From an uncultured Pseudomonadota bacterium (lineage in GTDB: Bacteria; Pseudomonadota; Gammaproteobacteria; Ga0077536): a stretch of DNA of 64,000 bases. The translations under genes and the position numbers were made by a program. Where the stretch lies: assembly GCA_903825645.1 (NCBI GenBank), contig CAIKBL010000083.1, forward strand, positions 1 to 64,000, given 5' to 3'. Below the pieces are notes generated by a model, which searched no databases, was not told where the DNA came from, and was given only the letters and a program-made list of their open reading frames with translations. This document shows, in pieces, positions 22,792-24,716 of the stretch (position 1 is the stretch's first letter; every line of letters begins with the position of its first letter).

Positions 22792-22820
22792 TTGAATCTT
22801 GGGAGAGCGTCAAAGACAAT
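22792..22820 (+). promoter_or_regulatory. Possible sigma-70 promoter for the 31-aa peptide gene
   Basis: TTGAAT (22792-22797) and GACAAT (22815-22820) are spaced by 17 bp, about 53 bp before the start codon of the small membrane peptide. The -35 is good and the -10 is a 4/6 match. Confidence 0.4.
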
Positions 22821-22873
22821 GGGGTTTGTTGCTCGCGAATTTACCCGCTTGCTGAAACTGAAGGGATAACATA

Positions 22874-22969
22874 ATGAATCCATTAGAGACTTTGGGTGGC
22901 ACTGTGACGGCTGGTGTCATTCTGGCGATCGTGCTTGCCTATGTGGCGAAAATTGTCGCCGGCGTGTGA
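22874..22969 (+). CDS. 31-residue single-pass membrane peptide
   Basis: A complete small gene: ATG 22874, TGA 22967-22969, with a strong GAAGGGA ribosome site eight bases upstream. The peptide has a short polar N-terminus (MNPLETLGG) and one membrane span of about 20 residues (TVTAGVILAIVLAYVAKIVAGV) with a single Lys near the end. It lies 61 bp before a DUF989/urate-oxidase-N-type membrane protein on the same strand. Size and design recall small accessory subunits of membrane enzymes such as CydX or CcoQ, but I recognise no family, so the link is inference. Confidence 0.65.
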   Translation: MNPLETLGGTVTAGVILAIVLAYVAKIVAGV

Positions 22970-23030
22970 TTGAATAATGACGAATTGACCCGGTCAGGAA
23001 CAATAAAATGTGCAACTCTGGGGAGGGGAC

Positions 23031-23573
23031 ATGATAGACGTTAGTATTTTGGTGCGCTGGCTGCATCTCGTGGTTGGTGTGATGTGGATCGGTCTACTGT
23101 ATTACTTCAATTTCGTGCAGGTCGGCGCGCTTGCCCAGGCCAATGCGGAAGCCAGTAATGGCGGACCCGGGGCCGCCGCGATTACTAAGTATGTAGCGCC
23201 GCGGGCACTCTTTTGGTTTCGCTGGGCCGCGCTGGCGACCTGGTTGACCGGGGCTTTCTATCTCGAGTCCTCGGCGCAGTACGCGCAAGCAGGACTGGCG
23301 GGTGCTTTCAGCTTGGGGGCGAACGGGCACAATATTCAGTTGACCTCCATCGGCATGGGCGCTTGGCTTGGCACGATCATGCTGCTGAATGTGTGGGGCC
23401 TTATCTGGCCAAACCAAAAGAAAGTGCTAGGTCTTGTGCAAGCTACAGACGCCGAAAAGGCCAAGGCCCGCCGCGTGGCTTTTCTGGCCTCCCGCGCAAA
23501 CACGATGCTGTCGATCCCGATGCTCATGTTTATGCAGGCAGGCGGCCACAAGCTACCGTTCTTCATGAATTGA
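23031..23573 (+). CDS. DUF989/urate oxidase N-terminal-like integral membrane protein
   Basis: This 180-residue protein has four predicted membrane spans. It starts VRWLHLVVGVMWIGLLYYFNFVQ, a hallmark of the PF06181 family (N-terminal domain of PuuD-type urate hydroxylase). Later spans include RWAALATWLTGAFYL, GMGAWLGTIMLLNVWGLIWPNQKK and a C-terminal SIPMLMFMQAGGH. It lacks the cytochrome-c domain that completes PuuD, so urate oxidation is not supported. Conserved His near the N-terminus and C-terminus could bind heme (inference). ATG 23031 follows GGGGAGGGG. A strong terminator follows at 23599. Confidence 0.78.
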   Translation: MIDVSILVRWLHLVVGVMWIGLLYYFNFVQVGALAQANAEASNGGPGAAAITKYVAPRALFWFRWAALATWLTGAFYLESSAQYAQAGLAGAFSLGANGHNIQLTSIGMGAWLGTIMLLNVWGLIWPNQKKVLGLVQATDAEKAKARRVAFLASRANTMLSIPMLMFMQAGGHKLPFFMN

Positions 23574-23598
23574 CCGTACGGAGCAGCTCTCGTCTGCG

Positions 23599-23630
23599 TG
23601 AGCCCGGCCACCCGGCCGGGCTCACTGTTT
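23599..23630 (+). terminator. Intrinsic terminator after the DUF989-like gene
   Basis: A perfect 11-bp stem, TGAGCCCGGCC (23599-23609) with GGCCGGGCTCA (23614-23624), has a four-base ACCC loop and is followed by CTGTTT. Confidence 0.75.
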
Positions 23631-23798: not shown

Positions 23799-24716
23799 GT
23801 GTCTGTACGTCATTTTTTGAGTTTGTTTGATCTCACCCGCGAAGAGTTGCTCGCGATCCTCGGTCGCGCCACGGAACTCAAGCGTCAGCGCGCCGAAGGG
23901 GTGCGTTCGCCGGTGCTTGAACACCGTGTCTTGGCGATGATTTTTGAAAAATCATCGACGCGCACTCGAGTCTCGTTCGAGGTGGCCATGCGGGAAGCTG
24001 GCGGCGGTGCGATCTTTCTGTCCCCCAGCGATTCACAACTTGGGCGCGGAGAGCCCATTCAAGACACCGCGCGCGTGCTCTCGCAAATGTGTGATGCCAT
24101 CACGGCCCGGACCTTTTCTCATCAGACTGTCGAGGAGCTGGCGGCCGCGGCGACGGTTCCGGTCATCAATGCGCTCACCGATCGGTTGCACCCGTGTCAG
24201 CTTTTGGCAGACATGCAAACTTTTCGGGAACACCGGGGGGATATCAAGGGTCGCCGCGTGGCTTGGGTAGGTGACGGCAACAATATGTGCAACACCTATA
24301 TCGAAGCGGCACAACTCTTCGGTTTCCAGCTCGCGATAGCGTGCCCGCTGGGCTACCTGCCTCGCGTGGAGGAGTATGTGCGGGGACCCGCGGATATCGA
24401 AATCTGTGCAACCCCACAGGCGGCCGTCGCCGGTGCCGATCTCGTCGCAACCGACGTCTGGGTCAGCATGGGACAGGAGGCGGAAGCGGCGCAGCGACGC
24501 CGTGATTTTGAGACCTTTCAGGTCGACGCGGCCCTGATGGCCGGCGCGCGATCGGACGCGTTATTCCTGCACTGTCTGCCCGCCCATCGGGGTGAAGAAG
24601 TCGCGGCCGAGGTGATTGACCACCCGCACAGCGTGGTGTGGGACGAAGCAGGTAACCGTCTCCACGCCCAAAAAGCACTGCTTGAGTTCTTGTTGCCCCA
24701 AAAGAAACGCGGGTAG
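23799..24716 (+). CDS. argF: Ornithine carbamoyltransferase
   Basis: This 305-residue enzyme makes citrulline from ornithine and carbamoyl phosphate in arginine synthesis. The carbamoyl-phosphate motif FEKSSTRTRVSFE, the HPCQLLADM motif and the ornithine-binding HCLPAHRGEEV loop are all present. The start is GTG 23799. surE begins at the very next base after its stop codon, so the genes are probably cotranscribed. Confidence 0.96.
   Translation: MSVRHFLSLFDLTREELLAILGRATELKRQRAEGVRSPVLEHRVLAMIFEKSSTRTRVSFEVAMREAGGGAIFLSPSDSQLGRGEPIQDTARVLSQMCDAITARTFSHQTVEELAAAATVPVINALTDRLHPCQLLADMQTFREHRGDIKGRRVAWVGDGNNMCNTYIEAAQLFGFQLAIACPLGYLPRVEEYVRGPADIEICATPQAAVAGADLVATDVWVSMGQEAEAAQRRRDFETFQVDAALMAGARSDALFLHCLPAHRGEEVAAEVIDHPHSVVWDEAGNRLHAQKALLEFLLPQKKRG

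Follow-up and report, generated by a model that had tools for sequence, protein, structure and literature searches.

A 31-residue membrane peptide as the probable detached helix of its neighbouring short DUF989 protein

Is a small membrane peptide encoded beside a larger membrane protein an added subunit, or is it a part of that protein? The question is raised by a locus in the window, the whole stretch of 64,000 nucleotides analysed here, where a peptide with one hydrophobic span (MNPLETLGGTVTAGVILAIVLAYVAKIVAGV) is encoded upstream of a short protein of the DUF989 family, whose gene starts 61 nt past the peptide stop (Table 1). A sequence-only reading of this DNA had described the two genes as a membrane unit and had likened the peptide to small enzyme subunits such as CydX. 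The label of accessory subunit is often given to small membrane proteins without evidence; the present peptide is most probably a part of its partner, and we put at about 0.8 the probability that it is a fifth helix detached from the DUF989 core, the two genes making up one membrane module.

The peptide gene and its DUF989 partner

The complete frame and the single hydrophobic span noted by the sequence-only reading are both present, and the signals that it called a strong ribosome site, a plausible promoter and a strong terminator hold in part. The ribosome site GAAGGGAT, 5' of the peptide ATG, matches the Shine-Dalgarno core over only 4 nt (AAGG) in the window, but the signal is enriched across homologues: a core of at least 5 nt precedes 53% of the 47 separate peptides versus 19% in shuffles. 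A plain consensus promoter scan of the window found none, TTGAAT-N17-GACAAT being below its threshold, but TTGAAT-N17-(N)A(N)AAT is kept 81–102 nt upstream of the peptide ATG in 17 of 17, at a rate of 0.09% per shuffled sequence. The hairpin after the pair, with a 12-bp stem and a 4-nt loop, is indeed strong, but its tail is only TGTTT, a weak T tract, and it is not among the calls of a terminator scan of the window.

Table 1 Coordinates of the features of the peptide-DUF989 locus in the window
Feature	Position	Strand	Basis
Promoter-like TTGAAT-N17-GACAAT	22792..22820	+	kept in 17/17 related loci
Peptide ribosome-binding site AAGGGA	22861..22866	+	sequence; Shine-Dalgarno enrichment in 47 homologues
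Gene of the 31-aa single-helix peptide	22874..22969	+	ATG start, complete frame, homologues, pN<pS
DUF989 gene ribosome-binding site GGGGAGGGGA	23020..23029	+	sequence
DUF989 protein of the short group, 180 aa, core of four helices	23031..23573	+	Pfam PF06181 partial match, alignment, profile homology to PuuD and the C-terminal-helix form
GC-rich hairpin, possible terminator or attenuator before argF	~23598..23625	+	fold z -4.0
argF, ornithine carbamoyltransferase, conserved neighbour outside the unit proper	23799..24716	+	NCBIfam TIGR00658

The partner is, as had been proposed, a relative of the N-terminal part of PuuD without its cytochrome. It scores 72.5 bits with PF06181 (DUF989/Urate_ox_N), against a Pfam gathering cut-off of 26.9, and its whole sequence contains no CXXCH and no cysteine at all, and therefore no cytochrome c motif. 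Aligned by profile with PuuD, it spans helices I, II, V and VI and lacks the III–IV stretch, so that it is a member of the short group and does not have the full-length eight-helix Urate_ox_N domain. None of the NCBIfam families matched the DUF989 protein, the peptide or the fused form described below above chance, and a sequence search of solved structures gave no match to the module.

Of 58 related genomes, 39 gave DUF989 matches in a first search. In 30 of 30 related loci, from the same family and from other families, the short DUF989 gene is preceded, 106–187 nt ahead of its start, by a homologous peptide some 31 residues long; one of the 30 (L021, MKNPLESIGG...) was identified by eye from the sequence. 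Alignment of the homologues gives the consensus MNPL(D/E)T..GTxxAGxVLAxxLAYVAK.xAG. In all 623 of 623 pairs of peptides pN is below pS (medians of 0.25 and 0.72, respectively), as is typical of a protein sequence under selection, here along the whole length of the peptide. These comparisons indicate that the 31-residue ORF is a genuine conserved coding gene. The sequence-only reading had staked its proposal on conservation of the peptide beside DUF989 genes in related genomes, and there it is conserved.

Separate, N-fused and apparent C-terminal forms of the helix

The peptide profile and the DUF989 profile were each run over 369 genomes of the class and the coordinates of their matches were brought together. 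This gave 102 close DUF989-short genes, 93 of which carry the peptide, either as a separate upstream ORF (40 genes) or as an in-frame N-terminal fusion (53 genes), where it is the helix with which a protein of about 200 residues begins. Nine genes were left unassigned by the matching; inspection by eye showed an N-terminal helix, related or divergent, in five of these, and a contig end truncates another (L259). In L266, which has a close DUF989 gene, the peptide was looked for and not found. L274 and L275 carry another hydrophobic N-terminal extension, LERALxFGxxLVxVLALxxG, which gives no match to the peptide profile. Across the 369 genomes, every peptide-profile match with E<=1.4e-4 (90/90) lies directly upstream of a DUF989 gene. 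Together with the 30 loci and the fusions in frame, this bears out the proposed two-gene membrane unit, and the fusions in relatives argue for contact between the peptide and its partner.

There is almost no chance, on these data, that the ORF is accidental or encodes a small hydrophobic toxin that happens to lie beside DUF989. It is short and hydrophobic, and the Fst toxin model has marginal matches to two fused homologues (E about 0.01), but neither origin accounts for its presence in all 30 loci, the excess of pS over pN in every pair, the conserved promoter element, or the strict linkage to DUF989 and fusion with it.

In a second collection of 80 records, 54 are fused, 25 split and one has neither form; Gallionella and other Betaproteobacteria are split, and Povalibacter and Woeseia are fused. 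The window's own genus has the peptide as a separate gene. A further 20 short DUF989 genes, more distant and chosen among the best matches, belong in 18 cases to another class of the phylum; all 20 encode an N-terminal hydrophobic extension, which matches the peptide profile in 11 (E<1e-3). Two records with DUF989 genes close to that of the window (L094 and L097, 73–82% identity) are named Klebsiella pneumoniae; they are environmental MAGs and their names look wrong.

In a third subfamily, more distant and with 16 members (L276-L294), the proteins have no N-terminal helix but two extra helices at the C-terminus, the last of which reads GPxxSVxGVIxxSxxLTxV. Comparison of this helix with 86 peptides by hhalign gave a probability of 96 and a P value of 3.1e-9, with only 27 columns aligned. 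The C-terminal-helix profile scored 76 of the 86 peptides above the best of 563 unrelated transmembrane segments; in the reverse direction, 5 of the 16 C-terminal helices scored above every true decoy, the transmembrane decoys excluding one real peptide from L180. A peptide-like helix is thus apparently attached at the C-terminus of the third subfamily. The N-fused form is laid out as the helix plus four and the C-terminal form as four, linker and helix; judging from these counts, the orientation of the helix should be preserved between them. The stand-alone helix, on the other hand, might be inserted in reverse relative to the fused one, because the charges next to the NPL motif differ, which matters under the positive-inside rule: D or E follows NPL in 24 of 33 stand-alone peptides and in 3 of 53 fused ones, usually K in the latter, these rows being related and not independent.

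On a tree of the core only, at least seven changes between the split and fused states are required and the C-terminal form is a single clade; read in this way, the two states interchange repeatedly. With the C-terminal clade by itself as the root, split lineages fall near the base of the gammaproteobacterial group, and this root suggested that the split state is ancestral. On a wider tree the short DUF989 proteins of the other class, which are all N-fused, fall outside the gammaproteobacterial group, and once they are added the fused state is more likely ancestral. Change may have run in either direction, because the split state looks old within the gammaproteobacterial group and the outsiders from the other class are fused.

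CydX-like subunits are small single-helix proteins encoded beside the gene of a membrane protein, and the peptide, as a small separate gene adjoining its partner, is like them. It could be an independent regulatory or accessory subunit of this kind that was fused to its partner later in some lineages, a history that would suit the split arrangement of 40 of the 102 close genes and of the window's genus, as well as the near-basal position of split lineages under the root on the C-terminal clade alone. Unlike CydX-like subunits, however, the helix is integral to its partner in over half of the genomes in which the peptide occurs. The short DUF989 proteins outside the gammaproteobacterial group are already N-fused and a similar helix is the C-terminal helix of another subfamily, so that the helix looks like part of the basic architecture of the protein. 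We consider the CydX-like subunit, as the sequence-only reading had it, rather improbable; a detached helix fits better.

In the detached-helix reading, the two genes would encode a single membrane module. The DUF989 protein would contribute the core, four helices with homology to I, II, V and VI of PuuD, and the peptide a fifth transmembrane helix packing on this core. Elsewhere the same helix would be covalently attached, to the N-terminus in many Gammaproteobacteria and in the short DUF989 proteins of another class or, as it appears, to the C-terminus with an additional linker helix in between. The peptide would bind the core physically and might be needed for its folding or stability, by analogy with subunit IIa of ba3 oxidase.

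Relation of the core to PuuD and HemJ

PuuD oxidises urate and is thought to hand the electrons to its cytochrome c (PMC4562309). The same paper noted a short DUF989 group, with four core helices similar to I, II, V and VI of PuuD and no cytochrome c, reported a gene context unlike that of puuD, and likened DUF989 to DUF2269; the parts of it drawn on here mention no peptide, no fusions and no helix at the other end (PMC4562309). What is new here is the most likely identity of the peptide, as its partner's own detached helix.

Profile comparison of the core with PuuD by hhalign gave P values of 4.6e-21 and 5.4e-19. Eight residues (H12, W19, P57, W62, F63, N120, Q129 and N157) occur in PuuD as well as in every form of the short protein, whether N-fused, split or C-terminal; where the N- and C-forms are invariant, the residue is for the most part one that PuuD has too. 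The homologous core is what the module has in common with PuuD; unlike PuuD, it has no cytochrome c, no helices III–IV or VII–VIII and no accompanying urate genes, neither the window nor the argD/argF-type relatives having urate or purine breakdown genes near the pair. The missing cytochrome c and the absence of a urate gene context rule out that the protein is PuuD itself. PuuD was also rejected as the source of the peptide helix, which was sought there by profile comparison and gave no match (P 0.03).

A HemJ-type protoporphyrinogen oxidase, or another CopD/HemJ-like four-helix protein, resembles the unit in the start of helix 1 (LH..xxxxW..GL.Y), and the DUF2269 profile touches a HemJ gene with an E value of 1.3e-4. 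Direct comparison of the DUF989 and HemJ (UPF0093) profiles, however, reached only P 0.02-0.06, and the genome already has a full HemJ of its own elsewhere (E 6.5e-47), so that it has no missing protoporphyrinogen oxidase for the unit to replace; we regard this identity as very improbable. DUF2269 was likewise set aside, with weak matches in just 2 of 20 relatives and none in the window's genome.

The AlphaFold models of the N-fused and C-terminal forms are confident (pLDDT 85–86). Foldseek searches with both models returned nothing significant (best E values of 0.34 and 0.49). VIA-align, run with the N-fused model, listed membrane b-type cytochromes and NOX/STEAP folds at Z 9–12; these matches are not used as evidence, because designed and soluble helical bundles were also listed and the Z scores are within the range of mere bundles.

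The residues shared with PuuD persist in all three forms of the short protein, which hints at a redox role; as the short form has no cytochrome c domain, an oxidoreductase with another acceptor is the simplest guess. Electrons would then pass to a separate acceptor. That the module is a small membrane oxidoreductase is a tentative proposal, with odds clearly below even.

Parallels and gene neighbourhood

The closest parallel to the peptide is subunit IIa of ba3 oxidase, although the enzyme and the operon differ. Subunit IIa is a single helix of 34–41 residues whose gene lies just upstream of that of its partner; it replaces the missing first helix of subunit II, to which it has no sequence similarity and opposite polarity, and gene fission or fusion has been suggested (PMC3128077). 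In the DUF989 case, by contrast, the homology between fused and separate helices is clear, and there is apparently a third place of attachment, at the C-terminus. No oxidase genes were found near the pair in the window or in the neighbourhoods of the relatives, unlike the setting of subunit IIa. A multi-helix membrane protein naturally split into two genes is also known from Kluyveromyces, Split-Doa10 (PMC3464245); that case is eukaryotic and a single fission, whereas the DUF989 case is bacterial and recurrent and detaches a single helix. The latter would be an unusually clear example of a movable protein helix, and its natural series of split, N-fused and C-terminal forms is material for testing helix insertion, orientation and assembly. 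It also adds a defined part to the widespread DUF989 family.

In the window the neighbours of the pair are grxD, argF, surE and pcm. The pair exists, but it is usually linked to argD-argF and is thus less isolated than the sequence-only reading had it: argD and/or argF come next on the same strand in 33 of 43 split, 39 of 58 fused and 3 of 16 C-terminal loci, and they are neighbours in most Gammaproteobacteria examined, the names of the arg neighbours having been checked with NCBIfam on one locus and for the window argF only. The tie to arginine synthesis is one of genomic context only.

This position recalls a leader peptide controlling the downstream arg genes by attenuation: the ORF precedes argF in the window and argD-argF in most relatives, and a hairpin stands ahead of argF. 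Such a role is next to impossible to reconcile with the peptide itself: the window peptide contains no arginine codon and arginine is absent from 76 of 86 peptides, 53 of 93 genomes have it as part of the DUF989 protein, selection acts at the protein level over its full length, and it is kept in loci of another type as well.

In these loci, four divergent DUF989 paralogs ('GHNYANxVQ'; L283, L293, L295 and L296) sit between radical SAM and aminotransferase genes. The flanks of L293, the one locus for which the gene names were checked, are PqqE, with PqqD upstream, and SerC. All four of these pqqDE-serC-type paralogs have their own separate peptide of about 30 residues upstream, of the KLPHETPAGTVLAGALLTIIL... 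type. Since the separate peptide is kept here too, the peptide and the core travel as a module, as far as gene order tells, in two unrelated loci. A wider proposal, that a movable helix, standing alone and possibly inverted, N-terminal, or C-terminal behind a linker, completes a redox module for arginine and PQQ loci, seems to us unlikely as a whole.

Among the C-terminal-form loci, those with argD and/or argF downstream include L287, L288 and L290. In L278, L281, L282 and L294 the DUF989 gene lies directly downstream of groES-groEL-like genes, with the C-terminal form in L278, L282 and L294. Two of the paralog genomes (G167 and G374) also encode the fused DUF989 protein of the argDF type.
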